64,000 nucleotides of DNA from Tissierellales bacterium (lineage in GTDB: Bacteria > Bacillota > Clostridia > Tissierellales > Sedimentibacteraceae): positions 1-64,000 of the forward strand of contig JAHDQO010000019.1 in the NCBI GenBank assembly GCA_018433765.1, written 5' to 3'. Below, piece after piece: positions 11,918 through 64,000 of this stretch. The notes below the pieces were generated by a model. It had not been told where the DNA came from and did no database searches. It was given only the letters and a program-made list of their open reading frames with translations. Both the position numbers and the translations under genes were made by a program. How positions within the stretch are numbered: the first letter of the stretch is position 1; every line of letters starts with the position of its first letter.

Positions 11918-12041
11918 AATACCACCTTTTTCCCTTTTTATTATTATTTTATTTATTTATTAATTCATTATTACAATATTATGATATAAATATTAAATGT
12001 TGGTTTAAGCATTTTTAATAAGTAATAAAAATGTCATAAAA

Positions 12042-12074
12042 TAAAAAAAAATTGATACTTAATAAGTATCAATT
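12042..12074 (-). terminator. Intrinsic terminator overlapping the apbE stop codon
   Basis: AATTGATACTT and AAGTATCAATT form an 11-bp stem with a 3-base loop, followed by eight T on the minus strand. Confidence 0.85.
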
Positions 12075-24505: not shown

Positions 24506-24525
24506 TTTATATTAGTCGCATTCTT
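24498..24525 (+). terminator. Hairpin at the end of the radical SAM gene
   Basis: GCGACTAA and TTAGTCGC form an 8-bp stem around TTTATA, overlapping the stop codon, with a partly T-rich tail. It may act with the stronger terminator 17 bases further on. Confidence 0.6.
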
Positions 24526-24535
24526 TGTTTACAAT

Positions 24536-24560
24536 AAAAAAAGGGCTAATGCCCTTTTTT
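24536..24560. terminator. Bidirectional terminator between the radical SAM gene and rnfB
   Basis: Seven A, GGGC-TAAT-GCCC, then six T: symmetrical, so it can stop the converging transcripts of the plus-strand operon and the rnf operon. Confidence 0.85.
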
Positions 24561-24566
24561 ATTTAA

Positions 24567-25541
24567 TTACTTCATTTCAATTGCGTCCTTCGGACATTTT
24601 TCAGCACATATGCCGCATCCGATACATTTATCTTGGTCTACTTTATGAACTTTTTTTAACTCTCCTTCAATAGCATCTTTTGGACAGTTCTTAGCACATA
24701 TTGTACATCCAATACATTTATCCTCATCTATAAAAGCTTTTTTCCTTTTATCTAAATCAGCAGTTATAGCTTTAGTTGGACATTTTATAACACATTCCAT
24801 ACATTCTTTACATTTATCATAATCAATTTTAGCTACATTATTTTCAACTTTTATAGCATCAAATGGACAGCTTTTCTCGCACAGCTTACATCCTATACAT
24901 CCAACTTTACAGTCTACCTTAACACTTTTACCAAAATCTTGGTTCTTACAATCAACAAATACTTCTTGATCATATGGAACTAGCTCTATAACACCTTTTG
25001 GACATACATCCACGCATTTACCACAAGCTGTACATTTTTCTTTATCAATAACAGCAACTCCATCAACAAGACTTATTGCGCCAAATGGACATACATCTAC
25101 ACATGTACCATATCCTAAACAACCATAGTCACATGACTTGCTGCCACCAGATATCATACTTGCTGCTTTACAATCAGTTATACCTTCATATTTATATTTT
25201 TCAATTGTATTGGTCTTACATCCTTTACATAATACTCTTGCAACTTTCTTATCTCCAACGGTAGCTTCCACACCCATAATTTTTCCTATTTTCAAAGCTG
25301 CTTCTGAACTTGAAACAGGACAACCATTGGCAGGTGCTTTACCTTGTGCTATAGCTTTCGCAAGCCCATCACATCCCGGATAACCACATGCACCACAGTT
25401 TGCACCCGGTAAATTTTCTCTAATCTGTACTATCTTAGGATCTACATCAACATGAAATTTTTTCGAAGCAATAGCTAGAACTATTCCAAATAATAATCCT
25501 AATCCGCCTAATGCTAATACAGCAATTAATATATTATTCAT
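24567..25541 (-). CDS. rnfB: Rnf complex subunit B (multi-cluster ferredoxin)
   Basis: Entry subunit for electrons from reduced ferredoxin. About 324 residues: one N-terminal membrane helix, then the four-Cys domain CGACGYPGCDGLAKAI...GCP, then six further Cys motifs of ferredoxin type (among them CTACGKCVDVCPKG, CIGCKLCEKSCP, CKECMECVIKCP, CIGCTICAKNCP and CIGCGICAEKCP). This is a longer cluster chain than in proteobacterial RnfB and typical of Clostridia. The ATG at 25541 has GGAGGTG six bases upstream. It is the last gene of rnfCDGEAB. Confidence 0.95.
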   Translation of the reverse strand: MNNILIAVLALGGLGLLFGIVLAIASKKFHVDVDPKIVQIRENLPGANCGACGYPGCDGLAKAIAQGKAPANGCPVSSSEAALKIGKIMGVEATVGDKKVARVLCKGCKTNTIEKYKYEGITDCKAASMISGGSKSCDYGCLGYGTCVDVCPFGAISLVDGVAVIDKEKCTACGKCVDVCPKGVIELVPYDQEVFVDCKNQDFGKSVKVDCKVGCIGCKLCEKSCPFDAIKVENNVAKIDYDKCKECMECVIKCPTKAITADLDKRKKAFIDEDKCIGCTICAKNCPKDAIEGELKKVHKVDQDKCIGCGICAEKCPKDAIEMK

Positions 25542-26835: not shown

Positions 26836-27426
26836 TTATTTCAAGTATTCATTATATATATCTAGTGCATTATTAACAGCACTTGTTATTGAACGTGATG
26901 AATATGTTGCACCAGAAAGTGCAACTATTTCATTTTCTTCAGGAGTTCCTTTAGAAACTCCTATTTGCATATCTGCACTTTTGCCAAAATATTGTTCTTG
27001 AAAATCTGCATTTTGAACATTTGACCCAAGCCCAGCTGTTTCAGATAATGAAAGAACTTTCATTCCAACAATTTCTCCGTCTAAAGAAACACCAAGATAT
27101 ATTTCTATATCTCCAGCATAGCCTTTAATAGGACTTGATGTTCTAATAGCATATCCTGTAGTATCTCCATTTTCATCTTTTCCAACTTTCAAGTCAATAA
27201 ATTTCTCATTTTTTTCTTTAATCTTATCTACTAAACTTTCATCATCTATTTTCTCAAAACCAATTGAACCAGGAATTACAGCATTTGCTACTTCAGGACC
27301 TGAACTAGCCGCTTCTTCTGCTTCAATTATCTTGTCTTTAGTTACATCATTTGAAAAAGCTAAAACCCCTGCTGAAATGGCTGCTATTAAAAATAGTATA
27401 CCACCTAACTTTACAATTTCTCTCAT
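26836..27426 (-). CDS. rnfG: Rnf complex subunit G (covalent FMN)
   Basis: A 196-residue subunit with one N-terminal membrane helix and an outer FMN-binding domain. The flavinylation motif SGATYSSRS lies near residue 174; ApbE attaches FMN to the Thr. KVLSLSETAGLGSNV is also typical. The ATG at 27426 overlaps the rnfD stop (ATGA), so translation is coupled. Confidence 0.95.
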   Translation of the reverse strand: MREIVKLGGILFLIAAISAGVLAFSNDVTKDKIIEAEEAASSGPEVANAVIPGSIGFEKIDDESLVDKIKEKNEKFIDLKVGKDENGDTTGYAIRTSSPIKGYAGDIEIYLGVSLDGEIVGMKVLSLSETAGLGSNVQNADFQEQYFGKSADMQIGVSKGTPEENEIVALSGATYSSRSITSAVNNALDIYNEYLK

Positions 27427-48880: not shown

Positions 48881-51800
48881 TCACACCTCCAACATTAAAA
48901 GTTCTACTGTATCCTGCATATCCGCCAATTTTTCATTTGTAGTTTTAATACTTGTAGTATTGCTGTCAATCTGCGTATTTTTATTACCAACTGTTTTTCC
49001 TTCTATCTGAGCCATAATTTGATTTTTAGCTTTGCCTATGATGTGGTATTTTGTATTAGCATTAAGTCCAGTTATGCTTATACCATCACTGCTTAAATTG
49101 AAGTTCGTCTCAATAACTTTATCGCCCTCATTATCAAAATAGAAAATTTCGTCAATTTCTTTAATAGGATAATTTAAAGTTATTTTACCGCTGGCGTCCG
49201 CTGTATGAGCTTGGTTATAGCCGTTCCATTGAAGAAGTCTACCGCCTGTGAAGGATGATAGTGAACCGTTGACTTGGATGTCTTCTATAGTGGGTTCTGC
49301 TAACTGATAAATTAGCGTAGTTCCTTTTAAGATTTGGCGTGCTTGTTCAAGAGTAGTACCTTTAGTAAATACAAAATCTAAAAATCCACCTCCTGTAGAA
49401 TGAGCAACCATATTAATATGTTCGGTAGTTAATTGACCTATTCTTGTATTACTAGGAATTTTGTTATACCCTTCAACAATATATTTTTCGCTATGATATT
49501 TAAAATACCCATCTGGCAGATTTAAAACTGAGGATATATCAAGTCTAGCAACGGTTACATCAAGAGACCCAGTATAAACACTTGAAATATCGCTTTCTTT
49601 TAAGTTGATATTATTAACATTGTTAACCATGTTTTGTGATAAAATGTCAATTTCGTCTCGTACCCCATTTGGTAAACTATGCAACGCACAATCATCTCCA
49701 TCTGCCATTTTTATTGAGGTTTGACTAGATTGATATGGTTCGTATGGTGTTGCTGTTGGGCCTTCTTCAAGTTGAAAATTACTATAAGTATAATTACTAA
49801 TATCTATTTTTGTAAGATTGAAGCTTATACTGTAATCAGTATTAGGCTTTACTCTAAACAACTGTTTATCACGTATTTTATCGTCTCTTACATCACCATT
49901 AATACCTATTCTCATAGATATTAATTTATATTTACCTGTATTGAAGGTAAATTTTGCAGTACCGCTTCCGGAAGATGCAAATGTGGTACCTATCGGTGTA
50001 ACTGTATTTGGTATTGTTGGGTAAGAATGAAATGAAATAACTGTATTATATTTTGTTGAAAATTTATTTCTCCATAAAGACTCATCAAACAAGTTCTTCC
50101 CCTCAGTCTTAAATGTTGGATTTACAACTGACTGCATACCTTCAAAATAACCATTTCTAACTAAGTTTAGCATTTGTTCTTCGGTGTAATCTTCTATACC
50201 TAAAGCGGTCATGTTGATTGCAAATACTCCTGCGTTGCCGTCTACTTCCATAACTTTATTGTTAGCAATTGAAGCGTTATCATAATAATGATATCCTCTT
50301 ATATCTCCATTTCCACCTTTGGTCAAAGTGCATTTTCCATGAAGTTCATACCATTCATTTTGATTTGGATTATCTATATAAAATATTGGTGAAGAATTTG
50401 AATTGTTTCCGTCTCGCATATACATATATAAATGCTTGCACTCCGAATTTGTAACTTTTACTTTCGAATAGAAGTAAAATATATTTCCATCATTCATTGG
50501 TATAGTATTATGCTGTATAAAAGCTGCCGAGGGACTACTTCCATCTGATTTTATAGTTAAAATTTTATCAGTTGCTGATAATATACTATCGTCATTTATC
50601 CACTCATTAGTTCCATCACTAAAATCACCGTTCTTAACTGAATTAACTAATGTCTGTCCTTTTACATTCAGCTCATTGAACCCACCGTACTTAGCTCCAA
50701 CAGGCATATCTATAATACCTGCCTGTCCTTTGATACTTGGTAACTTCTGACTATTTAAATCAGTCATTAAATTACTAACTTGATTATTAAGAGTTTTAAT
50801 ACTATTGGAATTTAGCGTAGCACTTTTTGCATTACTATCTATCAAGGCTTTTGTATTAATTGGATATGATATAACTTTTTCGGCGTTTGTGCTTTCATTC
50901 TCATAATAGTAATCCCATTCAACTAAGTCATTATTAACTAAGTCAGGATGGCTAAAACCTATCTTATTGCTATCTTCTAAAACAAATCCTGCTTTTGTTA
51001 CATCTAAACTTGTTTCTTCTCCTGTTTCTTTATTAACTTTTTTAATGAAATCAATACTTTTGATATGATAATCTCTATGCTTCACTATACAACCTTTTGC
51101 GTCATTGTAAATTGACATTTGATGAATTATATTATCAAATTGTATAGTACCGTTTTTGTATGTGTGTAATGGTTGAATATTTGGTAATTCTGTTATTTTA
51201 GGTTCTGCTAACTGGTAAATTAGTGTTATTGGGTGTGCATTTAAGTAATTTTTTAAATCATTAATAGTTGTTATACCTTCTATACGTATATAAAAACCAT
51301 AGCTTCCACCTATTGTAAATGCTGTTTTTTCAGGTGCAGGACTTAAAGGGAATACAAATGGTAAGTTTGGGCTATATGCAAATCCACCTAAATCTATTGT
51401 TAACATATTTAAATCGATTGGATGTAAATCTGTTCTATAAAAATAATTATATTGCGAATTATAATTCCAAATACCAGTCTCATCTAAAGTATACCAATCA
51501 CTTATTATTTTATGTAATTTACCGTCTTTAAATTCATCTTTAACGCCATTCGGTAAACTTCTTAATTCTTCTATATTACCGTCATCGTCTGTACATGAAA
51601 TGTATGTTTTATTGCTTTGATGTGGTTCGTATGGTGTTTCTGTTGTGCCTTCTTCAAGTTGACCATCTTCAAACAAACCATCAAAACCAGTATCGGTTCT
51701 ATATCGAATATACGCTGTATCATTAAGAGTTTTTATTGATATGTGTATTCTACCATTATTTTTAATTCCGTTTAAAAGTGTCATTTTCAAAAATACTTTA

Positions 51801-53293
51801 TTTACATTGTATTCATAAATTCTCATAACATTAACCCTACCAACTTTATGACTAAATGTAATATTAGTATTCCCTTTAACATGAGAATAACTTTCTGTTC
51901 TACTACCAGTACCAATTACACCATTGCCGCCATTATTATTAATAAATCCTAAACCAACATTTCCATCAAACAAATTTTTTCCTGTTGACTTAATTCTTTG
52001 TGCGAGAATTGTAGAGTTAGTGTTGTCGATGTATGGATATTTATTGTATAATTTTTGTAAATCTGTTTCAGTGTCTCCCAATTCAGTCAAATTAACGATT
52101 AAAGCATTTTCAAAAATTAAATCTCCAGCACCACTTTCTCTTAATTTTAAATTAACATTTTCTGTAGAAGTTGCAGTTACAATACCTATAGCAGATTTAT
52201 TTAAAACCAAATACTCTACTACACTTGTTGAAACTTCAACAGTAGATGAATTATAAAAAGCTATTACATCTTGGATACTGCCTTTACTTGTATTTTTAAA
52301 ATTAACAACTATAAAATATTTATTATTATTTGTTACGTGGAATACTTTTTCGTTTTCGCTGTAACCATTGCTTAAAATTGCCATACCAGTATTAGTTAAA
52401 CCTATCCTTGTTCCAGTATTGTCACTTAATATAGTATTTTCAGTGTTAGCTTTACCAAGTATATTAGTATATGTTAATCCATTTAATCCTACGTTAACTT
52501 GCCCATTAATGACACTCTCTGAATAATCTAATTCACTCCCAGCTTCTGCATAACCCTTACCTGTAGTAAAAATACTTGATGTATTATAAATTTCAGGAGT
52601 ATAATCGGAAGAATAAATTTCATCTTCAATTGTCTTAGTTCTTGCTTCCCAAGCATCATTTCTTTCTTTTAAAGTTGTATATACAGTGTCTTCACTGTCG
52701 ACCAAAGCTTGTGAAACTCTTGCATCTGACTCTGTTCCGCTATTTACAACTTGATTGAGCTGTGTTTGTAAGTTATCTATAGCTCCCTTTACATTAGTTT
52801 GATTATTGACATTCCCCTCATAATCAATATCAGGTGCTTTATGCTTATCTGATTCACCTGAAACATGGCTGTCATAATTTGATATATGTTTATCAATATA
52901 CTGTTTAATTTCAACCAATAAATCTTTTAAATTAGTAGATTTCCAGCTACCCTTTAAATCTGTAACCTTAACTCTATCATCATAAAGTAATTTAATACCT
53001 TTACCATAATAAGAATTGATAGTTATTGATTTACCTTCTAAACTAGGATAAAAATAAACAACTCCATGCTTATAGTTAACTTTAAAATCAGAACTATTTT
53101 TTAATGTTTCTGTTATAGTTCTTTCTATTTTACCTGTAATATTTACTTTATAAAATTCATCTGGAATTTGTGCCAGCTGTATCTGTGAATCATAAATAAT
53201 ATGTCGTTCACTGTGAACTGCAATAGATACTGGTTCACCATTAATTGTATTCAAATTTATTTCATAAGGTGTATTAAAAGTTTGTATCGCCAT
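48881..53293 (-). CDS. Large tail fibre / receptor-binding protein with duplicated module
   Basis: 1470 residues. The N-terminal domain (MAIQTFNTPYEINLNTING) would attach to the tail tip. Two similar modules follow, near residues 435-700 and 1062-1335; each runs from a GKNLFD segment through TPYEP and LPNGV(K/R)DE to LIYQLAEP. A heptad-rich C-terminus (NTTSIKTTNEKLADMQDTVELLM) may form a trimer. The ATG at 53293 has AAAGGAGGA upstream; a longer frame to 53335 has none. It likely determines target specificity. Confidence 0.85.
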   Translation of the reverse strand: MAIQTFNTPYEINLNTINGEPVSIAVHSERHIIYDSQIQLAQIPDEFYKVNITGKIERTITETLKNSSDFKVNYKHGVVYFYPSLEGKSITINSYYGKGIKLLYDDRVKVTDLKGSWKSTNLKDLLVEIKQYIDKHISNYDSHVSGESDKHKAPDIDYEGNVNNQTNVKGAIDNLQTQLNQVVNSGTESDARVSQALVDSEDTVYTTLKERNDAWEARTKTIEDEIYSSDYTPEIYNTSSIFTTGKGYAEAGSELDYSESVINGQVNVGLNGLTYTNILGKANTENTILSDNTGTRIGLTNTGMAILSNGYSENEKVFHVTNNNKYFIVVNFKNTSKGSIQDVIAFYNSSTVEVSTSVVEYLVLNKSAIGIVTATSTENVNLKLRESGAGDLIFENALIVNLTELGDTETDLQKLYNKYPYIDNTNSTILAQRIKSTGKNLFDGNVGLGFINNNGGNGVIGTGSRTESYSHVKGNTNITFSHKVGRVNVMRIYEYNVNKVFLKMTLLNGIKNNGRIHISIKTLNDTAYIRYRTDTGFDGLFEDGQLEEGTTETPYEPHQSNKTYISCTDDDGNIEELRSLPNGVKDEFKDGKLHKIISDWYTLDETGIWNYNSQYNYFYRTDLHPIDLNMLTIDLGGFAYSPNLPFVFPLSPAPEKTAFTIGGSYGFYIRIEGITTINDLKNYLNAHPITLIYQLAEPKITELPNIQPLHTYKNGTIQFDNIIHQMSIYNDAKGCIVKHRDYHIKSIDFIKKVNKETGEETSLDVTKAGFVLEDSNKIGFSHPDLVNNDLVEWDYYYENESTNAEKVISYPINTKALIDSNAKSATLNSNSIKTLNNQVSNLMTDLNSQKLPSIKGQAGIIDMPVGAKYGGFNELNVKGQTLVNSVKNGDFSDGTNEWINDDSILSATDKILTIKSDGSSPSAAFIQHNTIPMNDGNIFYFYSKVKVTNSECKHLYMYMRDGNNSNSSPIFYIDNPNQNEWYELHGKCTLTKGGNGDIRGYHYYDNASIANNKVMEVDGNAGVFAINMTALGIEDYTEEQMLNLVRNGYFEGMQSVVNPTFKTEGKNLFDESLWRNKFSTKYNTVISFHSYPTIPNTVTPIGTTFASSGSGTAKFTFNTGKYKLISMRIGINGDVRDDKIRDKQLFRVKPNTDYSISFNLTKIDISNYTYSNFQLEEGPTATPYEPYQSSQTSIKMADGDDCALHSLPNGVRDEIDILSQNMVNNVNNINLKESDISSVYTGSLDVTVARLDISSVLNLPDGYFKYHSEKYIVEGYNKIPSNTRIGQLTTEHINMVAHSTGGGFLDFVFTKGTTLEQARQILKGTTLIYQLAEPTIEDIQVNGSLSSFTGGRLLQWNGYNQAHTADASGKITLNYPIKEIDEIFYFDNEGDKVIETNFNLSSDGISITGLNANTKYHIIGKAKNQIMAQIEGKTVGNKNTQIDSNTTSIKTTNEKLADMQDTVELLMLEV

Positions 53294-53367
53294 ATTGTGT
53301 CCTCCTTTCGAAATATAAAATAGCCGATTTTGCAACTTGTTAGCATTGAGTTCTGTTGTTTATAGTT

Positions 53368-53395
53368 AAGATCTTTCGACTTTGCTCAAGATGAC
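53368..53395. repeat. Junction repeat, copy between fibre and Tal genes
   Basis: AAGATCTTTCGACTTTGCTC followed by AAGATGAC, same family as the elements at 48212-48410 and 61372-61409. It lies in the 150-base gap upstream of the fibre gene. Confidence 0.65.
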
Positions 53396-53445
53396 CTATA
53401 TCCATCATTCTGTGATATTAGTCACTTACCAAGGTGTAAAACACT

Positions 53446-56421
53446 TTATACACTCATTAAAGCTTGTATAAATAAAGATGCATCTATTCTTCCTAAACCA
53501 TTATCATCATTTTTTACGCTTTCAAGTTCTATCTTATTCCATTTTCCTATATTGAGATAAGGCGTTATATTTAAATTATCTTGTCCTGTTGTAAAACCTG
53601 AACTGCCACCTAAAGAAGAAGTTCTATCAGTTCCATTTATTTTGATTTTTACTTTTGTAGGTTTTAACATTCCTTTTGTATTTTCATAAATTCCATAATT
53701 AATCTGATGTGTATGAGCTGGTAATTTAACATCATGTCTATGATCCATTTTATGAAAGTGACTTGGCATATTAATCTTATGATGATGCTTTGGTATTTCA
53801 ATTTTATGATAATGATCTCCACTAGCACCATATGTATATATATTATTAGAACCCCAATGAGATTTTTCTGTTTTTAAAACAATTTCATTATAAACATCTG
53901 CAAACATTGAATCTGCAATTTTATATTTTTTTTCAGTAAAACTATTTTCATAAAAATTACCAGAAACATATGAAGCCATTAAATGTCTATGATTTCCACC
54001 ATCTTCTGTAGTTGAGAGATCAATATCTCCATCCTCAGTACTAGTAAGATTAATGGTTTTACTTTCAGTAGTAGTTTTAGTAGAAGACTCACTAGTTGGA
54101 GTGCTACTACCTCCATTTTTAGCCCCCTTAGAATAAGCTCTAAACTCCTCCAACTGAAATCTTAAATTAACAACATTTATATGTTTAGTGCTTGATGGAA
54201 TATATACATTTAATTTTAGTGGGTGATCGCTGTCAACATTATCTACATTACCTTCCTGCCATGTTTGAAGTATGCCGTCTTCGTCTAATATTGTTTTTTT
54301 TCCTGTAGAATCTTTAAGCAATAAACCATATTTGCCAGAAGTATAATTCCCTAGTTTTACTCTTTCTCTATTCGAACTATCCAATACTTGAATACCATTT
54401 GTAGGAGTAATTTTAATACTATTATATAAAGTATCTTTTTTTACAGCATTATTATCTGTATAATCTTTAGCATTTGTTTCAGCATTATTTATTTTATCTT
54501 GTACCGTACTTTCCGTTCCATCGCCCTGTACAAGTATTTGATTAGCATTAATCTTGCAGAAGTTACCCAGCAATCCATTTACAGCTTGTGCGTTAACTCC
54601 ACTTGGTGTAATAGCTACAGTTGCAGTATTAAAAGCATTAGGAGTTATAACAATTGCATTATTTACTAGTTTTATTTGTTCTGGACTGATAGTACCATCT
54701 GATAATTTTTTCTTTAAATGTATACCATACTTGTCCATTATAGGTTCTTGACCATTTGAAGTTATTACTGCTTTGGTACTTAAATCTAATTTACTATTTA
54801 TATATTTCTCTAATTGTGTCTTAGTTGAAGTAGCAGTATTCCAATCATATTTACTAAAATTAACCGAAGAGTTTGTAGTGCTTAATTGTTTTAATAAATC
54901 TATTTCATAATTATACGGATCATTAATATTATTTCTATTACTAAATTCTAAATCCAATTTATTATCATCAATATTGTGTACATATGAAATTAATCTTACT
55001 TCAGTATCAATACCTAATCTATCATGTTTAATATTTATAATATCTCCAACAACAAGCTTTTCCCAATCATACTGACATTCTATAATGTTTAAGAAATTGA
55101 CCGAGTCTATTGTAAATTTAATGGGTGGTTGACTTATACGTACTAAATATTTAATACCATATTCTAATAGTTCATTCTTATTTTCCACTACATAACTAGA
55201 ATCTGAAAATGTTTCATCTTTTATAAAAGGGTCCAGCTGTTCTATTTGGCTGCTAGTTAAGTGACTAGACATTTTTATTTCTTCTCGCAAAGTATTAATA
55301 TTTATGTTCACATTATCAATATTATTTTGAATAGTTTGTTTTTCATTTTCTTTTATGTCTATTTCTCTTTCTTTATACTCTATCTGTTGATTATATGTTG
55401 TTAAATTTTTTCCACTTGCCATAGCTAAGTCTTTATTTTGCTTTAATGAATCTAAATCCGTTTCTAAGCTATTTATCTCATTTTTTTTAGAAGTAAGTTG
55501 AGCATTCAAATCATCTAGTTGTGTTAAATAATCTTGAAACACACCATCTTTATTAGATATAAACTCTTCATAATTATTTAAGGCATCAATTAAATCCTGT
55601 TCCATAAAAGGCTCTCGTTTAAAGTAGTTTAGATTCATAATATAATTTTGTCCTGTAATATTTATATCTTCAACGGAAATATTATTTTTACCATAAAGAT
55701 ATAATCTAGTTTTAATCATATTATCATCAATATTCTTAGTTATGTCTTTTATATAATTTTCATCTGATATATATAAGCCTTTATTCTGTCCTAATTCATT
55801 TAATTTATATATTTTAAACTGCTTATTTACAGTATCAAATTGAAATAAACATTCAAAAATTTTTTGTATATCTTGAATAACTGCAATTAAATTATCGTTT
55901 GCAATATCAAATCCACGATATACATCATACAATTCAGGACTTACATACTCTACAGTCCAAGAAGTTAAAGTTTCAATGTAATTCATTATTCCTTTAGAAA
56001 AGCCATCCTCGTCCAACTCATTTGATGTACTGTAAATTTTTCTAGAATCAAATTTATATCCTCTAAGTTTTTTATCTGACAGTTCATATTCTCTGCTGTA
56101 GCAGTGTATTTCTTTATAGGTTTTACCTTTACAATCGTGAATAGTAATATCATCAATAACAAAATACTGATAGTTACCTAATTTTATTAATAAATTACCT
56201 TTAATTAAATCATAATTTGGATTTTTCATAGCTTCATGATTTTTAGTTCCTTGATTTATATAATAAGGAACATTAAAAGTAAATTCATCTATATCAGCAA
56301 AATTATGCTTATATACTTTGTTGTATGAACTACCTAATTCACACATTTCTTTACCATTTCTTTTGCATAAAACTAATGTATATTTTGGCAGTTTCATATT
56401 CGGATTAATGTCTATTAGCAA
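53446..56421 (-). CDS. Tal-like tail tip/endopeptidase-type protein with His-rich fibre end
   Basis: 991 residues, matching siphophage tail-associated proteins: N-terminal hub domain with YKHNFADIDEFTFNVPYY, CYSREYELSDKKLRG and IQDIQKIFECLFQFD, then coiled coils (residues 285-375). Around residues 830-910 there are several HxH motifs (NHRH, DHYH, HHH, HFH, HRH, HTH), like metal-binding short tail fibres. TTG start at 56421 behind GAGGTGAT. No peptidase motif was found. Confidence 0.85.
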   Translation of the reverse strand: MLIDINPNMKLPKYTLVLCKRNGKEMCELGSSYNKVYKHNFADIDEFTFNVPYYINQGTKNHEAMKNPNYDLIKGNLLIKLGNYQYFVIDDITIHDCKGKTYKEIHCYSREYELSDKKLRGYKFDSRKIYSTSNELDEDGFSKGIMNYIETLTSWTVEYVSPELYDVYRGFDIANDNLIAVIQDIQKIFECLFQFDTVNKQFKIYKLNELGQNKGLYISDENYIKDITKNIDDNMIKTRLYLYGKNNISVEDINITGQNYIMNLNYFKREPFMEQDLIDALNNYEEFISNKDGVFQDYLTQLDDLNAQLTSKKNEINSLETDLDSLKQNKDLAMASGKNLTTYNQQIEYKEREIDIKENEKQTIQNNIDNVNININTLREEIKMSSHLTSSQIEQLDPFIKDETFSDSSYVVENKNELLEYGIKYLVRISQPPIKFTIDSVNFLNIIECQYDWEKLVVGDIINIKHDRLGIDTEVRLISYVHNIDDNKLDLEFSNRNNINDPYNYEIDLLKQLSTTNSSVNFSKYDWNTATSTKTQLEKYINSKLDLSTKAVITSNGQEPIMDKYGIHLKKKLSDGTISPEQIKLVNNAIVITPNAFNTATVAITPSGVNAQAVNGLLGNFCKINANQILVQGDGTESTVQDKINNAETNAKDYTDNNAVKKDTLYNSIKITPTNGIQVLDSSNRERVKLGNYTSGKYGLLLKDSTGKKTILDEDGILQTWQEGNVDNVDSDHPLKLNVYIPSSTKHINVVNLRFQLEEFRAYSKGAKNGGSSTPTSESSTKTTTESKTINLTSTEDGDIDLSTTEDGGNHRHLMASYVSGNFYENSFTEKKYKIADSMFADVYNEIVLKTEKSHWGSNNIYTYGASGDHYHKIEIPKHHHKINMPSHFHKMDHRHDVKLPAHTHQINYGIYENTKGMLKPTKVKIKINGTDRTSSLGGSSGFTTGQDNLNITPYLNIGKWNKIELESVKNDDNGLGRIDASLFIQALMSV

Positions 56422-56433
56422 TATATCACCTCT

Positions 56434-57213
56434 TTACTGAATTATTGGAAACTGCATTCTAATCTTTAAATCACATTTTCCTGTTACTTCAATTTGATTT
56501 ACTCCGTACACTAACCTAAACCAATTTTTATTAAAATTAGCAAATCTATAAACTAAAGGATTATCACTTATAATATATTTATTTTTATTATCAATTGATA
56601 TAATTTCACCTGTTTGCAATCCATTAAAAGAAAAAATCCTTCCACAGTCAGAAAGATTTTTTAATGATATTCCTGTAGATTTTCCTATTAATTGAAATTC
56701 AACATCAGGATAATAATATTCATTTATGTTGCTTTTATTTGCTATTTGTATAATTTCCTTAGTTGTGTTATAACTCAAATTATAATGGTCTATGTAAGGT
56801 GGTGCCCATGCAAAAGGAGCGTTATTCCTAAAAGTTAATTCAACATAACCTTTTTTACCTACTGTATATAAATTACCTTGGTCTACACAAATTACATAAT
56901 AGAATTTACCTAAATCATCTCCTGTTTGAAATGATTTATATGTATCATGAAACAGCCATCTAGCAATTTCATATCTTTTTTTTTGTGTCCATTCTTCATC
57001 TAATAATGATAACTTCAATTTAAATTCAAGTGGTGATTGTTCAACCCCATAAAAAAAAGGCATATTACGCCTAAATATTTGTTCTTCTATTATACTTTTG
57101 TTTGCTAAATATGGTGATTCTACAAAGTCAGTATCAAGTCTAATTATGCTTAAACCCATTTCAGCAGAACTTATTCCATCAAATATAAAATGTTGAGATT
57201 CTATTGTAGTCAC
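56434..57213 (-). CDS. Distal tail protein Dit
   Basis: 259 residues with FIFDGISSAEMGLSIIRLDTD, FFYGVEQSPLEFKLKLSLLDEEWT and VELTFRNNAPFAWAP, the siphovirus Dit/tail family pattern. It forms the hub ring between tube and Tal. The start is unclear: GTG at 57213 lies inside GGAGGTG, and an ATA four codons on has the best spacing. Confidence 0.9.
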   Translation of the reverse strand: MTTIESQHFIFDGISSAEMGLSIIRLDTDFVESPYLANKSIIEEQIFRRNMPFFYGVEQSPLEFKLKLSLLDEEWTQKKRYEIARWLFHDTYKSFQTGDDLGKFYYVICVDQGNLYTVGKKGYVELTFRNNAPFAWAPPYIDHYNLSYNTTKEIIQIANKSNINEYYYPDVEFQLIGKSTGISLKNLSDCGRIFSFNGLQTGEIISIDNKNKYIISDNPLVYRFANFNKNWFRLVYGVNQIEVTGKCDLKIRMQFPIIQ

Positions 57214-57351
57214 CTCCTATGATTTTTTATATAAAAAAAGACCCTTGTCCATATTTTCATACCCCTTCTATGAAAAGTAACTACAACTTTTATTTGATTA
57301 GTCTTTTTCATAAAGAGGGATATTACACATGGACTGAGCATACTTTCCTTA
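57214..57351 (-). promoter_or_regulatory. Structured leader RNA before dit, mutually exclusive pairings
   Basis: The RNA contains TATGAAAA twice (57305-57312 and 57254-57261) and its complement TTTTCATA once between them (57269-57276). Pairing with the 5' copy gives a long stem that includes GGGG/CCC and is closed by GTCCAT/ATGGAC. Pairing with the 3' copy gives a local hairpin and allows AAAAAGAC (57301-57308) to pair with GTCTTTTT (57235-57242) at the T-run. Such architecture suits an attenuator or riboswitch. I know no matching class. Confidence 0.6.
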
Positions 57352-57357
57352 AACAAA

Positions 57358-57385
57358 AGTATACCATATATATTTAATTAGTCAA
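57358..57385 (-). promoter_or_regulatory. Internal sigma-A promoter between tape measure and dit
   Basis: TTGACT and TATACT are separated by 16 bp on the minus strand, immediately after the tape-measure stop. It would drive dit, tal, fibre and xkdX separately through the structured leader. Confidence 0.75.
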
Positions 57386-57424
57386 TAATTTTGATATTTT
57401 GTATTATATTGTCATACGTATAAT

Positions 57425-60400
57425 TTATCTATATAGCCCATTACTTCTAGCTTTACGAAACTTTTCAATTTCTACTTCTTTAATAACTTTTTTCATAGTT
57501 GCATTTAAATTTGGCAATATTGTTCTATCTAAATTACCTGCTACATTGATATTAATATCGTAATTACTACCAGAAGTAAAAGTTTGAAGTTCTTTAAATT
57601 GAGGCATTCTTAAATTCAATGAATGCTGCATAAATCCTTGATATTTGGAAGCATTTAAATTAATAAAAGGATTATTTGCTTTCGGTATGATAGCTTCTCC
57701 TTCATGTATAATAGCTTTACCAGTTCTAGGAACATAAGTTGTACCTCTATCATAAATACCTACTAAATTACTTTCTACATAACCTTTTACTGGTGTTTCA
57801 CTTCCCATTATATTTGATGATCTTTTTGTAGAAGATGTAGCTTTATTTATCTTTGATGAAGATTCTCTTAATTTGTTGACCATATCTAAAGCATCTTCAA
57901 TCTTGTCAATGAATTCTGATTTAATTTGGCTTCCTAAAAAAGACATTCCATCACCAAATTCATTTTCAAATTTATTATAGGCGTCTGTTAATGTCAGCAT
58001 TTGTCCGTCTATATATTCTACCTGACCTGCAATTAATGCTTGTTGAGCTTCAAAATATATGGATTGGTCACTGTATTTTGAGTCTAAATATTGTTTTTCC
58101 TTTTCATATTTATTATTTAATCTTAATTTTTCTCCTTCATAACGCAAGTTCTCTTCATTTTCTAAAAATTGATAGTATTCTTCTTGTTTGCAAAGCTGTT
58201 CATCTAGACCGCTTAATAATAATTCTTTTTCTCTGTCTCTTTGGTATTCAGCTATTTCTTGATGTTTATCGGAAAGTTGTTTTTCTAGCTCAATAGTTTT
58301 TGTTTTGGCTTCTATATCATCACGTAGTTTTAATTCATTTATTTGCTTTTGTATTATACTTTCTTCATCATTTAATTTACTTAAGCCTTCTTGGTATTCC
58401 TCTTCTTCATATTGTTTATTTAGAGCATCTTTTTTGTCATTTATCATGTTTTTATATTTGTCAAGCTCTTCTTTATAGCCATTTAATATAGTTTTATGCT
58501 CATCTTCTAAATTATCAATCTTCTCATTATGCGTTTTTTCCAGCTCATCACGTTCTATTTCTTCTCGTTTTTTTATTATTTCTATAATTTTGTTCTCTAC
58601 TTCTGATACGTTATCTAATCTGTTTTGATATGCTTCTTTATTTAATTCGCTTAATTCTTTCTCAGTATCTTTTATACTATTATTATATTGAATCCATTCA
58701 AGCGAGGCATCTGAAATAGCACTTGTTGTGTCTTGGATGGTATTAAACATATCTTGCAACTGTGAAGCTAGTTCTGGATTTTTTTCACTTATGCTCTTAA
58801 GCTTTTGATTAATTTTATCTGTATCAAATATAATATTTTTTAACTGCCCATTTTCATCATATTCAATTTTCATATCAGATTGAGATAAACCCAGACCGCT
58901 TATTAAATCTTGTGCTTTTTGACTAGCAACTTCACGTCTTTTCTCGTTTATATTGTGTAATTCGTCTTGATATTCTTTCATTAGATCTATTTGTTTAATT
59001 AAAAAGTCTGCTTTATCAGTACCTTTTGATTGTTCAGATAATAGTTTTTGTCTTTCTAGCTGATAATTAATTTCTTCAAGTTTTTCTTCTATAGACAAAT
59101 ATGTATCATCTATTTGAATTAAATCATTACTGTTACTAGTTTTTGTACTGCTTTTATTTTCTGCTATTAAATCATCAAAATTCATAGATTTAATCAAATC
59201 TATTTGAGAAGTAAGTGCATCTATTTGAGTATTATCAAATTTAGGAGCTTTGTTCATTAAAGAATTAAAAATACTGCTAGTTATAAATCCATTCTCTAAT
59301 TGTGATTGTAAACTATTTATTTGAAAATCATATAATTTTTTTTCTTCTTCTAACTGCTGTTTCTTTATTTCAAGGTTTTTAACAGCACTATTTCGTTCTG
59401 CTTCAAATAACAATTTTGCTAGTTTTATACCATTTTCTTTAGATGTATTTGCATTAAGTATCTGTTGAGTATACTGAGGATACTGCTCAATCAAGCTAGA
59501 TAAAGTGCTTGCTGATAACTTGTTACCATTGTTTAAATCATTATAAATACTTGATAAAGATTTTGTATTTGAATAAAAATCATTAAAAATTTCTGAAGCT
59601 TGAGTATAAATTTGATTTAGCTCTTTTTGTGATTTATATGAATTTTCAGTTCCTTTTTCAGACTCTAGTTGTGACTGCTTAAGTTTACGCATTTCTTCAT
59701 TATACGCTTCTAGTGTTATCTTTCTACTATTGTATTCGTATGTCAGTTTCTCTTCTGCTTTAGCCAATCCTAGAGTATCTCTTATTAAATACTCTAATCC
59801 ATCTGATTGATCTATCATATTTTGTAAGTCTTCAGGTATATCTTCTCCTATTATTGAATAGGATTGTGTATCTTCAATTATCTGTTTTTGCTGTTTGCTA
59901 AATTCTATTAATTTAGTCTTTGCTTTATTTACTTGATTATCAATAGAATCTTTAATTAATGGGTCTTTAATTGCTGAAATATCTAAATTATTATATGTAT
60001 CAAGAGTTTTTATAGTTTTTTTAATATCATTTTGGACTCTTCCCAATTTATTAGGCAAGTCATCATATGTAAGTATGCTGCTGTTTCCTTCAATTTTCTT
60101 TTTTGCTAATTTCTTATTTTCTATATCAAGTAATATTTTCTGATATTCAATTTCAGTTTCCAAATCAGAAATTCTATTTTTATCGGCTTCTGTTGGTGAT
60201 TGTATTTCCTTTAATCTGCTTAATTCATCATTTAATTTATTATAGCTGCCTTCTAATTCATCAACTTTTTCTTGTTGTTCTTGTATACTAACATGAAGTT
60301 TTTCAAAAACGGCAATTCCACCTATTATAACTGCTACTGGAATAATAGCAGATAACGCTACACCTAAGCTAAATGCAGCTTCACTGGCTATACCTAATGA

Positions 60401-60868
60401 CTCTGCAAATATACCTATGTCTAAAGCAAAACTTTCAAATAAGGTTAGTTTTCCGCAAATGCTGCTTATTTGGTTGAACAGTTTTACACCTGCAGAAATA
60501 TCTTTACATACATTAACTATTTGTCCACCTAACTCAAAAGTACTGTTAGTTAGTTGATTATTAGAGTTATTTGTTTCATCAGTTATATTATTTAACTCTG
60601 ACATTTTAGTTCTGAACTCTTCTACTGCACTTAAATTATATGTTATATCTATATTGCTTTTTAGGTTTATTTGATTTTTATTTATATCATTAATAATCTT
60701 TTGATAATTTAATTTTATATCTTGAAATTCTTTCATTAATACTTGCGAATTTGTTATTATATTTAGCTTATTTTCAGATGCTAATTTTTTTAGTAAAGGT
60801 TTTAATTTAGAATTTACTTTATTATATTTCTCAAAATTAATTTCAATATCTAATGTTCCACTAGACAT
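57425..60868 (-). CDS. Siphophage-type tape measure protein
   Basis: 1147 residues: helical N-terminus, a hydrophobic segment near residues 165-190 (SLGVALSAIIPVAVIIGGIAVF), and long coiled coils (e.g. EEKLEEINYQLERQ, ELDKYKNMINDKKDAL). No lysozyme or peptidase domain was seen. At 1.5 angstrom per residue the tail would be about 170 nm, twice the contractile tail. Lies between chaperone-like and Dit genes. Confidence 0.88.
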   Translation of the reverse strand: MSSGTLDIEINFEKYNKVNSKLKPLLKKLASENKLNIITNSQVLMKEFQDIKLNYQKIINDINKNQINLKSNIDITYNLSAVEEFRTKMSELNNITDETNNSNNQLTNSTFELGGQIVNVCKDISAGVKLFNQISSICGKLTLFESFALDIGIFAESLGIASEAAFSLGVALSAIIPVAVIIGGIAVFEKLHVSIQEQQEKVDELEGSYNKLNDELSRLKEIQSPTEADKNRISDLETEIEYQKILLDIENKKLAKKKIEGNSSILTYDDLPNKLGRVQNDIKKTIKTLDTYNNLDISAIKDPLIKDSIDNQVNKAKTKLIEFSKQQKQIIEDTQSYSIIGEDIPEDLQNMIDQSDGLEYLIRDTLGLAKAEEKLTYEYNSRKITLEAYNEEMRKLKQSQLESEKGTENSYKSQKELNQIYTQASEIFNDFYSNTKSLSSIYNDLNNGNKLSASTLSSLIEQYPQYTQQILNANTSKENGIKLAKLLFEAERNSAVKNLEIKKQQLEEEKKLYDFQINSLQSQLENGFITSSIFNSLMNKAPKFDNTQIDALTSQIDLIKSMNFDDLIAENKSSTKTSNSNDLIQIDDTYLSIEEKLEEINYQLERQKLLSEQSKGTDKADFLIKQIDLMKEYQDELHNINEKRREVASQKAQDLISGLGLSQSDMKIEYDENGQLKNIIFDTDKINQKLKSISEKNPELASQLQDMFNTIQDTTSAISDASLEWIQYNNSIKDTEKELSELNKEAYQNRLDNVSEVENKIIEIIKKREEIERDELEKTHNEKIDNLEDEHKTILNGYKEELDKYKNMINDKKDALNKQYEEEEYQEGLSKLNDEESIIQKQINELKLRDDIEAKTKTIELEKQLSDKHQEIAEYQRDREKELLLSGLDEQLCKQEEYYQFLENEENLRYEGEKLRLNNKYEKEKQYLDSKYSDQSIYFEAQQALIAGQVEYIDGQMLTLTDAYNKFENEFGDGMSFLGSQIKSEFIDKIEDALDMVNKLRESSSKINKATSSTKRSSNIMGSETPVKGYVESNLVGIYDRGTTYVPRTGKAIIHEGEAIIPKANNPFINLNASKYQGFMQHSLNLRMPQFKELQTFTSGSNYDININVAGNLDRTILPNLNATMKKVIKEVEIEKFRKARSNGLYR

Positions 60869-60910
60869 TTATTCACCACCTCTAAATTAATTAAGGTATT
60901 AGATTTGTTT

Positions 60911-61306
60911 TTATATATTATTGTACTGTATAATTTCATCTAATTTTTCTTTTGGCAGTTTTGACATATTGTTTATGTTTGTCATCATTTGATTTGATAA
61001 AAACTGTATAATATCTGTTATTTCGTTTACTGTTTCTGTTAATTCTTGTGATGGATCTTCAAGTATTTCATCAACTAATTTATCATCATCTTTTAAATCT
61101 AGTTTTATGTTAGTTAATTCAGGTATAAGTTGCAACAGTACATCTTTACCGCTTATTTCAATTTTATCTGTTTCATTATCTATACTTTCTGATATTAGTT
61201 TAATAATTTTTTCTTTTTGCTTAGGTGATGGATTATATACTTCTATACCATTATCAAATCTTTTTCGTATTTTACTTCTTTTTAATTCACTAAAATTTAT
61301 AGACAT
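60911..61306 (-). CDS. Putative tail assembly chaperone of the non-contractile module
   Basis: 131 residues, acidic and helical, with KRSKIRKRFDNGIEVYNPSPKQKEKIIKLI then KDVLLQLIPELTNIKLDL. Position between tube and tape measure is that of a chaperone. There is no second frame after it and no slippery heptamer at its end, so it may act unshifted. The family match is not certain. Confidence 0.6.
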   Translation of the reverse strand: MSINFSELKRSKIRKRFDNGIEVYNPSPKQKEKIIKLISESIDNETDKIEISGKDVLLQLIPELTNIKLDLKDDDKLVDEILEDPSQELTETVNEITDIIQFLSNQMMTNINNMSKLPKEKLDEIIQYNNI

Positions 61307-61371
61307 TAATTACCTCCTTAAGTTCTATCACATCAGTTAATTATCAAAAATTCTTCTTTTATACGATACAC

Positions 61372-61409
61372 AAGATTCTTCAATTCCGCTACGCTCCGTT
61401 AAGAATGAC
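61372..61409. repeat. Junction repeat, copy between tube and chaperone genes
   Basis: AAGATTCTTCAATTCCGCTA then CGCTCCGTTAAGAATGAC: imperfect palindrome of the same family as 48212-48410 and 53368-53395. The 61307-61517 gap also holds a terminator. Confidence 0.65.
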
Positions 61410-61480
61410 TATATTGGGTAATCCTGCACTTTTATCTTAAAATGGTCACATCCTAACAATAGCCTATTATTTAGTTGGAA

Positions 61481-61510
61481 AAGAGGATATCAAACATCTA
61501 ATATCCTCTC
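61481..61510 (-). terminator. Hairpin after the tail tube gene (attenuating terminator)
   Basis: GAGGATAT and ATATCCTC pair (8-9 bp) around a 10-base loop and are followed by four T on the minus strand. The weak T-run suggests partial termination, which would give more tube than downstream mRNA. Confidence 0.65.
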
Positions 61511-61517
61511 TTTATAT

Positions 61518-62507
61518 TTATTTGCAAACTACACTAATTACATCTTTTAAACCTGTTGAGCTTGTTATAGTTATTTCAGCCGTACCACTTCCTACATATT
61601 CTACAACACCGGTATTTGATACTGCTGCTATACTTTCATTGTCACTAACAAATGTTAATTCTGCATTTTTAAGCACTGTAGGTGAATAAATACCACCTCG
61701 TAAGCCGTATATTGTCAATGCATGATTTGTACCTGATGCTAATTCTACTTTTGAAGTATCTGCTGTAATTGCAGTATAAGTTGCACCTTTTTTTAATGGT
61801 ATTGTCTTTTTGTAACCATAAATATCGTCTTCTGTACTTAATATTTTTCCTGACATTGATGAAGTTGCAGGAGCTTCTGAAGTAAGTGCCATTTCAAAAT
61901 TACCAGATGGTTTAAATTTAGGGAATATCCATTGAACTTTTTCTTTTAGTCCTGCGTCATCAAACACTTTAATTTCTAATACTAATTCATATGTTTTTGA
62001 AAAACTATTGCCGTCAATTGTTATTACATCTACATCTTCATTATATTGATATGTAACTTTAACTGTTTGATTAGCAAAACTGTCTCCCATTGAAAAGTCA
62101 CTGCCATTAAAGCTTTTTGTTGTAATTAAACCATCAGAAGTTTGAACATATGCTTTAACTCCTGCAATTGGTGTCTGTTCTGCAACTGTTCCATTTCCTA
62201 AATTATCTAATTCAACTGTTTCTTCAAATACGTACACGTTTGATACTTGATTTTGAATTGTTGTTCCACAGTTTAATGCTATCATGGCTGGTTCATATCT
62301 GGCGTCTTCTAGTTTAACTTCTCCTGTTCTGCCGTAATTGTAAGCATAAAGTAATTTATTTAGTTCTCCTCCACGTATTTCTTTTTCTTCAACATTAAAT
62401 GTTATAGTACTGTTTAGCAATGTTTTACTTCTCATTACTATCATATCTGATTCTGTATCCCTTAACATTGCATTTGCTACTGTTGTAATATATTGTTTTT
62501 CTCCCAT
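61518..62507 (-). CDS. Non-contractile tail tube protein with C-terminal Ig-like domain
   Basis: 329 residues. The first 245 look like a major tail tube protein (ITTVANAMLRDTESDMIVMRSKTLL, EIRGGELNKLLYAYNYGRTGEVKLEDARYEP, KFKPSGNFEMALTSEAP). The last 80 match a bacterial Ig-like (Big_2) domain: SKVELASGTNHALTIYG, DNESIAAVSNTGVVEYVGSGTAEITI. Such domains decorate phage tubes. Start at 62507 follows AGGAGG. Confidence 0.85.
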   Translation of the reverse strand: MGEKQYITTVANAMLRDTESDMIVMRSKTLLNSTITFNVEEKEIRGGELNKLLYAYNYGRTGEVKLEDARYEPAMIALNCGTTIQNQVSNVYVFEETVELDNLGNGTVAEQTPIAGVKAYVQTSDGLITTKSFNGSDFSMGDSFANQTVKVTYQYNEDVDVITIDGNSFSKTYELVLEIKVFDDAGLKEKVQWIFPKFKPSGNFEMALTSEAPATSSMSGKILSTEDDIYGYKKTIPLKKGATYTAITADTSKVELASGTNHALTIYGLRGGIYSPTVLKNAELTFVSDNESIAAVSNTGVVEYVGSGTAEITITSSTGLKDVISVVCK

Positions 62508-62518
62508 TTTATTTCCTC

Positions 62519-63274
62519 CTAGTTAATAAAGTTATTTATTTTGTTTTCAAATTCTTTTTTATCCATTAATATACCATCATATTTGTCATTGCTAATATGA
62601 GATGTCCAATGAGGTATTGGATGGTTAAAACTAACAAAACCGCTTAATTCAGCGGTTTTATAAATTCTATAATCTTGTATTAAGTTTAATCTTTGTATTT
62701 CTTTTCTAAACTGGTATATTGTTAGTTGTTTAATATCATCATATTTTTCATGAGTAATACAACGATAGCTAATTATTTGATCTTCTATTGTTCCTTCATT
62801 ATTCATTTGTCTTTTAGCTAAAAATTCCATAGATTCTTTGATAGCTGCTCTTAAATCTGGATGTAATTTATCATCTATTTCAGGTATTGCATTTTGATTT
62901 AGTATTATCTTTTTTATTTTATCAAAATCTTCTTCATTAAATATTCTATTATTAATATTCAAAGAAATTTGATTATTTTTAAATTGAAGAAAACATTTCT
63001 CAGTTTTAAAAATATATTTGCAGAAATTTTTAAATTTATTAAATACATCCTTGAAAACTATCTTATCTTTATTATCTTTAATTTCAGGTAGTACAAACAG
63101 CAGAAATTTTAAATAACTCATTTTAATAATATTAATATTAGGTATACTGTTCTTATCAATTAATAATAATGATATTAAGTCTTCAAACATTTCATAATCT
63201 TTCATTAAAAAAGGATATATTTTAATATTTTTATATTCTCTGGCATCGCCCCATGTATCAATTAATCTTAACAT
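62519..63274 (-). CDS. Unknown phage protein upstream of the tube gene
   Basis: 251 residues, helical, with Lys-rich middle and a conserved-looking end: HPDLRAAIKESMEFLAKRQ, QLTIYQFRKEIQRL and a Trp/His segment (NHPIPHWTSHI). I do not recognise the family. Position before the tube gene suggests tail assembly or completion. Confidence 0.6.
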   Translation of the reverse strand: MLRLIDTWGDAREYKNIKIYPFLMKDYEMFEDLISLLLIDKNSIPNINIIKMSYLKFLLFVLPEIKDNKDKIVFKDVFNKFKNFCKYIFKTEKCFLQFKNNQISLNINNRIFNEEDFDKIKKIILNQNAIPEIDDKLHPDLRAAIKESMEFLAKRQMNNEGTIEDQIISYRCITHEKYDDIKQLTIYQFRKEIQRLNLIQDYRIYKTAELSGFVSFNHPIPHWTSHISNDKYDGILMDKKEFENKINNFIN

Positions 63275-63284
63275 GTTATTATCC

Positions 63285-63770
63285 TTAGTTTATATCTTCA
63301 AAACTAAATATGATTCTATATCCTTCATATCCAGTTGGAGAACTTATTTTTGAACCTGATTTGAAATATATCTTTCCTATCTTCATAATATCTTTATTAA
63401 ATATTAATTTGTTTAGTCTGTCACATATCCAGCTTAACCTAAAATCTACATCGTTAATATTTATATGAGTATAAATATCAAATATTATGTCTTGACTTGA
63501 AATTAAATAATTTTGTTTTTTGTTTCTTGCACCTGAATAAAAACATATTCTACATTTTTCTAGTGAATTTTCTAAATCATTAACTGAAGAATCTTTTTTA
63601 ATTACATCCTCTATTATATTCCATCTATCTACATCATCTTTATCTAAAATATTTCCTTTTGATTCATCTAATGGATTGTCCTTATCGTTCTTCGACTTGT
63701 AATATAATAATCTTAACAAAACTTCATCGGTAGTAAGAACTTTATAAATAGCTTTTAAGCTTTCTCTCAT
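63285..63770 (-). CDS. Putative tail completion protein, first gene of the non-contractile module
   Basis: 161 residues from MRESLKAIYKVLTTDEVLLRLLYY. Pieces such as ISSQDIIFDIYTHININDVDFRLSWICDRLNKLI resemble tail completion/terminator proteins. Start ATG 63770 is behind AAGGTGATT; an ATG at 63794 is in the ribosome binding region. No head gene precedes it within the window. Confidence 0.65.
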   Translation of the reverse strand: MRESLKAIYKVLTTDEVLLRLLYYKSKNDKDNPLDESKGNILDKDDVDRWNIIEDVIKKDSSVNDLENSLEKCRICFYSGARNKKQNYLISSQDIIFDIYTHININDVDFRLSWICDRLNKLIFNKDIMKIGKIYFKSGSKISSPTGYEGYRIIFSFEDIN

Positions 63771-63873
63771 ATTTACATCAATCACCTTCCTCATACTTAT
63801 CTATCAGTAACAACTAGACATATAACTTGTCCTAGACTATCTATTTAAATTTATATGTAATAAATAAAAAGTC

Positions 63874-63885
63874 AGTTTGTATGCA
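63874..63885 (-). promoter_or_regulatory. 12-bp motif shared by both tail modules (copy 2)
   Basis: TGCATACAAACT on the minus strand, identical to 48189-48200. It lies just downstream of the predicted -10 box of the first module. Confidence 0.4.
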
Positions 63886-63895
63886 GCTGCTGCTA

Positions 63896-63923
63896 ATACT
63901 AATATTAGTTTTATAAGAGTCAA
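63896..63923 (-). promoter_or_regulatory. Candidate promoter of the non-contractile tail module
   Basis: TTGACT and TAGTAT are separated by 16 bp on the minus strand. The -35 lies inside one arm of the inverted repeat 63915-63959, so a protein bound there would repress it. Confidence 0.6.
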
Positions 63924-63959
63924 ATCTATTTTAGTATAATTATCATTTATTTGACCCTT
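63915..63959. promoter_or_regulatory. Inverted repeat overlapping the module promoter (candidate operator)
   Basis: AAGAGTCAAAT and ATTTGACCCTT (one mismatch in 11) are separated by 23 bp. The arrangement fits two half-sites of a phage-type repressor or activator. The regulator gene is not in the window. Confidence 0.5.
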
Positions 63960-64000
63960 ATATAATATATAGTGATTGTGTGAAGAATTAATTAACCATA

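Follow-up and report, generated by a model that had tools for sequence, protein, structure and literature searches.

A putative promoter and attenuator-like leader between the tape measure and dit genes of a tailocin-like cluster

The minus-strand gap between the tape measure gene and dit, the distal tail protein gene, carries a promoter match followed by a strongly folding leader, a long nested hairpin with seven U directly behind it. We predict, tentatively (with a probability of roughly 0.4), that this gap is a promoter and attenuator cassette, an enlarged form of the hairpin found at the same junction in related loci, which limits transcription into the tip genes. Transcription of the leader, its termination at the U run and a dependence of tip protein levels on the element are all inferred. 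Under this reading, the way in which phages and tailocins balance tube, tape measure and tip proteins within one late operon would become testable at a defined place, and a recurrent tape measure-dit hairpin would in one case have grown into a promoter with a structured leader. The element lies in a 64,000-nucleotide stretch of a Tissierellales contig, the whole of which is referred to here as the window; its features and those of its surroundings are listed in Table 1.

Table 1. Features of the tape measure-dit gap and of the surrounding block (positions marked C28 lie past the window end)
Feature	Position	Strand	Basis or remark
Promoter-like site, TTGACT-16-TATACT, TATG before the -10	57385-57358	minus	sequence match
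-35 hexamer TTGACT	57385-57380	minus	
TATG	57368-57365	minus	
-10 hexamer TATACT	57363-57358	minus	
Nested hairpin RNA, ~118 nt, predicted +1 (A57350) to U run	57350-57233	minus	predicted fold
Helices of nested hairpin	57350-57343/57240-57233; 57334-57327/57254-57247; 57323-57316/57266-57259; 57314-57305/57276-57267	minus	predicted fold
Apical stem of nested hairpin	57303-57299/57283-57279	minus	predicted fold; in addition two 2-bp helices and one 3-bp helix
Seven U behind hairpin	57239-57233	minus	intrinsic-terminator-like end
TTTTCATA	57276-57269	minus	
TATGAAAA, two copies	57312-57305 and 57261-57254	minus	
Anti-SD segment GUUGUAGUUACUUUU	57287-57273	minus	pairs with 57217-57203 over dit SD and start; 15-bp helix
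43-codon ORF through leader	57341-57210	minus	starts 9 nt after predicted +1, ends inside dit SD
dit ribosome binding site (SD) AGGAGGTGA	57218-57210	minus	sequence; L010 homologue has AAGGAGGTG at the equivalent place
ATA at the position of the homologue's ATG start of dit	57204-57202	minus	L010 MES... aligned to I(ATA)ES...
Tape measure protein gene, 1147 aa	57425-60868	minus	phrog_4211, E 3e-28; ORF listing
Dit, distal tail protein gene	56434-57213	minus	phrog_33, E 8.7e-22; PF20753/PF20195
Repressor-like gene, divergent	C28:66262-66684		
Sigma-factor-like gene	C28:64109-65395		phrog_5767
Non-contractile tail genes	63794-48574		
Contractile tail genes, including sheath and baseplate	48121-38779		
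Hemolysin/holin-like and lysis genes	end of block, down to 36932		

The leader element occupies the minus-strand gap between the end of the tape measure ORF (57425) and the dit ORF, which is called from 57213. The GTG start given by the ORF listing (57213) falls within the dit ribosome binding site (SD). When measured to the ATA found where the homologue has its ATG, the gap is 220 nt in length, compared with 36 nt in the nearest relative (L010). This ATA, which follows a strong SD, is a rare start codon, a lesion or a sequencing error.

The two genes belong to a block that runs from C28:65395 to 36932 (partly past the window end) and comprises a sigma-like gene, a non-contractile tail, a contractile tail and lysis genes. 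The tape measure, tip and fibre ORFs of this cluster are long and open. The search for head genes covered the scanned proteins of the tail block, among which there was no match named as portal, terminase or major capsid. Several matches in the block are labelled 'head and packaging' in PHROG (virion structural, minor head and internal head protein), and the proteins concerned also match tail or lysis families or stand among tail genes. This gene content points to a tailocin-like cluster that combines the two tail types; its killing activity and the absence of a head are both putative. A bacterial flavin oxidoreductase is encoded beyond the repressor-like gene. The stretch that separates the sigma-like gene from the first tail gene contains two exact copies of ACTATATATTATATAAGGGT (63954-63973 and C28:64047-64066), the only ones genome-wide (one further copy has 1 mismatch and two have 2); these are candidate late promoters of the sigma-like protein.

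A promoter had been proposed in the first-pass annotation directly after the tape measure stop, and a site of this kind is present approximately 40 nt downstream of it. By sequence match, it has the features of a sigma-A promoter: hexamers resembling TTGACA and TATAAT, a spacing within the range of 16-18 and an extended -10. Its score of 14 out of 16 (10/12 for the hexamers and 4/4 for TRTG) is the highest observed and is reached by four sites on both strands of the 64 kb, the gap site among them. When the gap was shuffled with its dinucleotides preserved (one strand), a site scoring at least 14 with a full TRTG was found in 16 of 5000 shuffles. A hexamer-only scan of positions 50000-64000 returned 98 sites against 100.3 expected; as there is no excess of promoters in this region, the gap match by itself is no proof. 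Judged by eye, the gap promoter appears to be of the sigma-A-like kind and thus of a kind other than the ACTATATATTATATAAGGGT candidate late promoters. The transcription start that had been placed near 57351 fits this promoter, with the slight change that the predicted +1 is presumably A57350 rather than 57351, based on the usual distance from the -10.

The nested hairpin begins approximately 75 nt after the tape measure stop. RNA spanning 57352-57190 has a predicted folding energy of -44.9 kcal/mol (z -5.5) and RNA spanning 57351-57233 one of -38.6 kcal/mol (z -6.8); in both cases, none of 200 shuffles was as good. When the minus strand was tiled with 120-nt segments (step 60, 30 shuffles each), segment 57340-57221 had the lowest z of all 1065 (-6.4). 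By these statistics, the strongly folding structure in the gap is real. The next strongest minus-strand folds are located at 11981-12100 (z -6.0), 24461-24580 (z -5.6) and 26861-26980 (z -4.9). In prefix folds of growing transcripts, the stem closes stepwise during transcription, and the basal pairs have formed by the start of the U run (57240, -35.0 kcal/mol).

The end of the hairpin has the arrangement of an intrinsic terminator: the stable stem closes at 57241 or inside the U run, and seven U follow. When transcription starts at 57350, the 5' end of the RNA, AAGGAAAG, is paired with the U run, and we take this A-rich 5' end, the stem and the U run to constitute together an intrinsic terminator arrangement. 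The leader hairpin is much longer than usual terminators, and a terminator scan with loops of at most 8 has no entry for it. Terminator scores were calculated with a single formula, by hand for the 99-nt hairpin of the window and for L057 and automatically (hairpins of at most 60 nt) for the other relatives. The hand-picked 99-nt stem-loop (GCUC...GGGU) scores +20.6 if a single unpaired C preceding the U run is left out and -10.2 if this C is counted as part of the tail; in the same automatic scan as used for the relatives, the window scores -42.5. In read-through RNA (57424-57233) the U run is 80-93% unpaired, and it is largely paired in most computed cases in which downstream bases were added or the 5' end was placed at 57500 or 57600.

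Dit has relatives in SPbeta-like phages, in some other large phages and among genomes of its own phylum, with a best identity of 48%. No closer relatives were found in genome contigs, or in viral contigs with a single-protein query; a pair-alignment query of the viral contigs returned two Dit relatives (31% and 29%). The junction upstream of dit was compared in 20 loci (L010-L013, L016, L018-L022, L025-L029, L032, L034, L035, L056 and L057). Twelve other loci with Dit matches had been left out beforehand (L014, L015, L023, L024, L033, L036-L040, L042 and L044), either because Dit was matched weakly or only in part, or because the upstream gene was not, or not clearly, a tape measure gene; among these, L024 has an annotated terminator upstream of dit, with the tape measure elsewhere in the record. 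With presence judged from printed folds, a stem-loop is found at the junction in 11 of the 12 loci with a gap of at least 34 nt (it is absent from L035) and in none of the 8 whose gaps do not exceed 25 nt. These are non-independent events, because L012 and L034 belong to the same genus, both L018 and L019 are SPbeta-like, and L020 and L021 look related.

The same distribution is seen if the count is restricted to the 13 loci with a supported tape measure gene upstream: 6/7 with a gap of at least 34 nt have a stem-loop, versus 0/6 with shorter gaps. Support came from annotation or a match for L018, L019, L020, L025, L026, L027 and L029, and from a scan of ten upstream ORFs, six of which match tape measure families (L010, L011, L013, L028, L032 and L035). 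Of the remaining ORFs scanned, those of L012 and L034 match a minor tail protein family and those of L016 and L056 match nothing; L021, L022 and L057 are counted among the 20 loci and stand outside the 13 supported ones. The z values of the relatives' hairpins range from -1.87 to -5.35 at the positive loci (L057, with a gap of 34 nt and a hairpin scored by hand, has none). The terminator formula gives values above 0 in 8 of 12 loci, the exceptions being L010 (-0.1), L012, L034 and L035; the junction hairpins of L012 and L034 have a poor T tail. In ten loci (L010, L011, L012, L016, L018, L020, L021, L032, L034 and L057), the hairpin lies in the same place before dit as that of the window and is short; by eye, the stem sequences differ, and the search for promoters and anti-SD segments covered the window alone. 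The window leader is thus one of a positional class of junction hairpins, but is far larger and has a promoter match.

Two well-known arrangements resemble this gap. Terminator-attenuated leaders and translational riboswitches of Firmicutes consist of a promoter, a structured leader, a U run, the SD of the next gene and mutually exclusive pairings. The gap shares all of these elements, but differs in that it has no Rfam match, its alternative folds are far from balance and it is located inside an operon. Phage morons have their own promoter and a terminator-like end and are inserted between late genes; the gap is alike in both its promoter and its end, but contains no protein gene with coding character.

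The closest parallel by position is a stem_loop annotated between yomI and yomH of SPBc2 (SPbeta; NC_001884, 30416-30439), which, like the window element, separates a tape measure gene from a dit gene, in a tail homologous to that of the window. It has a T-rich tail and scores +25.7 with the terminator formula. The annotated SPBc2 structure is simple, 24 nt in length and located right at the tape measure stop, whereas the window hairpin is nested, approximately 118 nt in length and begins about 75 nt further on. The window leader also has a promoter match of its own, in a promoter search that covered the window and not the SPBc2 junction. Several late gene clusters of SPP1 are reportedly delimited by potential terminators (PMC6316719). 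The late genes of SPbeta are reported to form a single operon that the phage polymerase YonO transcribes (PMC5467207; PMC8270828), and the SPBc2 record has several stem_loops within the late cluster. If these genes are indeed one unit, such hairpins therefore need not stop the late polymerase, and by this analogy junction hairpins may act on the host polymerase only. A search of the window's own genome for a YonO-type polymerase with the SPbeta YonO as query gave no match; it was run without a positive control and carries no weight.

In the mechanism that we propose for the cassette, host-type RNA polymerase would start at the sigma-A-like promoter (at about 57350), and the growing leader would zip into one long nested hairpin, followed by the U run. 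Much of the transcription would end there, yielding an RNA of approximately 118 nt. Polymerases arriving from the tape measure gene would meet the same hairpin, such that dit, tal and the fibre gene would be reached by the read-through fraction only. On this view, the element is the enlarged counterpart of the simple and mostly terminator-like junction hairpins of the relatives, and its job would be the punctuation of transcription between the tube and tip genes. We count in favour of this reading the fold z and its rank, the stepwise closing, the rarity of the promoter match, the hairpins of the relatives, the SPBc2 stem_loop and the SPP1 terminators. Against it, we count the lack of a homologue of the leader, the length of the hairpin, the change of sign in the terminator score, the close pairs among the relatives, the lack of any surplus of promoter sites in the region and the occurrence of the SPbeta stem-loop within an operon reported to be one unit. 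In addition, an attenuator with a promoter would on its own leave unexplained why the tip genes should have their own start.

The leader had initially been read as a switch in which TTTTCATA can pair with either copy of TATGAAAA. The motifs, the U run and the SD are all present, but the two partners are not nearly equal: with TTTTCATA forced onto the second TATGAAAA, the fold has -25.7 kcal/mol, compared with -44.7 kcal/mol for the main fold. Given this difference of 19 kcal/mol, the pairing should be practically absent in the full leader, and a TTTTCATA/TATGAAAA switch is rejected, as its folds are so far from balance. What stands of the switch leader is a structured RNA, either a leader or a small RNA, that has a good promoter match and a U run and adjoins the dit SD.

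A different pairing, between the anti-SD segment and the dit start region, would allow a two-state translational leader. In this reading, the anti-SD segment is by default locked in the long hairpin and dit is translatable; if the 5' arm (about 57345-57305) is cut away or captured by a ligand, a protein or a second RNA, the 3' half buries the dit SD and start in the 15-bp helix and the U run is drawn into a second hairpin (57262-57254 with 57237-57229, taking in most of the run). The 3' half of the leader alone takes the anti-SD form (z -4.5, with 0/200 shuffles as good). Pairing of the leader with the dit start region gives a duplex of -17.8 kcal/mol (equalled by 16 of 2000 shuffled leaders), the strongest among 21 tail-gene start regions; the next has -16.1 kcal/mol. 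With six 5' ends in the range 57325-57290, the predicted probability of the anti-SD helix is 0.93-1.0, and with five in the range 57335-57500 it is 0.0. The best fold with the small hairpin GGAC-AAGG-GUCU, which contains the anti-SD helix, has -30.9 kcal/mol. The main fold is more stable than this by approximately 14 kcal/mol and can also form first; the anti-SD form is therefore likely only if the 5' arm is missing, blocked or held. At -44.7 versus -25.7 and -30.9 kcal/mol, the full leader lacks the similar stabilities of a bistable leader. The dit SD is, moreover, mostly paired in the other folds already: its mean unpaired probability is 0.36 in the main fold with the 5' end at 57351, 0.07-0.16 with the other 5' ends tried at 57335 and upstream, and at most 0.36 in every ensemble containing the anti-SD. 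No ligand, partner RNA or homologue is known. We consider a two-state leader unlikely, if well short of negligible, and regard as distinctly improbable its boldest version, a tail-tip riboregulator of a new kind in a tailocin-like operon. In that version, dit would be open by default and closed by the 15-bp anti-SD helix upon cleavage or capture of the 5' arm, the rates for tube and tip of a killing particle would be set separately, and the released ~118-nt RNA might act in trans. In the promoter and attenuator cassette that we prefer, the anti-SD segment could provide a further layer of control, over the translation of dit, when the 5' arm of a transcript has been cut off or blocked.

The gap could also be a self-standing small RNA gene (a non-coding moron) transcribed by host polymerase and acting in trans, without a role for dit. 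It is a complete unit from promoter to U run, the gap is much longer than that of L010, and the promoter is, by eye, unlike the candidate late promoters that are repeated in the cluster; the leader, however, is present in a single copy in its own genome (for which a repeated or mobile element is also rejected), and no relatives were found in the collections searched. No homologues of the leader DNA were found in phages or plasmids. An 18-base leader pattern has two matches in viral contigs, where approximately 350 bases around each are unlike the leader. Short matches to the leader occur in 15 of 100 tallied genomes and, at E of at most 0.01, in 67 of 249 genomes of the order (own genome included in both counts); they resemble chance-level matches to AT-rich sequence, T runs or SDs. 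As no target is known and the junction hairpins of the relatives argue for a local role, a small RNA gene is also unlikely. A hairpin for RNase III-type processing or mRNA stability, in which the stem is cut or shields the 3' end of the tape measure message and the half-lives of tube and tip messages differ, would suit the stacked helices of 8, 8 and 10 bp with small internal loops, as well as the occurrence of junction hairpins in L012 and L034 despite their poor T tails. It would make both the U run and the promoter superfluous, and we find it very unlikely.

Still less probable is a functionless relic or chance fold in a decaying cluster: dit has no normal start codon at the homologous place and no relatives of the leader were found in the collections searched, but the fold statistics, the coinciding promoter and the long open ORFs on either side speak against it. 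Least credible of all is a small gene, with the 43-codon ORF being a leader peptide or a small protein coupled to dit. An ATG ORF of at least 42 codons is found in 113 of 5000 gap shuffles, or in 207 of 5000 if any of three starts is allowed. Its codon score of -0.47 bits/codon is below all 279 real gene segments sampled from the cluster and below 89% of 212 open off-frame segments, and a coding ORF or protein-coding moron is rejected on this codon usage. The SD of this ORF lies inside the stable stem. With tblastn, the ORF has no match in phages at E 5, and the 20 matches at E of at most 0.1 in 248 genomes of the order (own genome excluded) are about the number expected by chance, with 11 containing internal stops; its best Pfam match is far under the cut-off.

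The idea that the promoter had been tandemly duplicated into the apical loop was considered and rejected as too weak, as the local alignment score of 33 is reached by 40 of 2000 shuffles. Titles and abstract openings on SPbeta tails and terminators, YonO, prophage small RNAs and tailocin sigma factors contain no description of the element. The first-pass annotation recognised no known riboswitch class in the leader, and the Rfam search agrees: there is no match in the leader at gathering score (the best sub-threshold matches, with E 1.7 and 2.9, are on the other strand), and a known RNA family is therefore rejected. Elsewhere in the window, Rfam matches a SECIS_4 element at 582-619 and a glycine riboswitch aptamer at 3523-3624.
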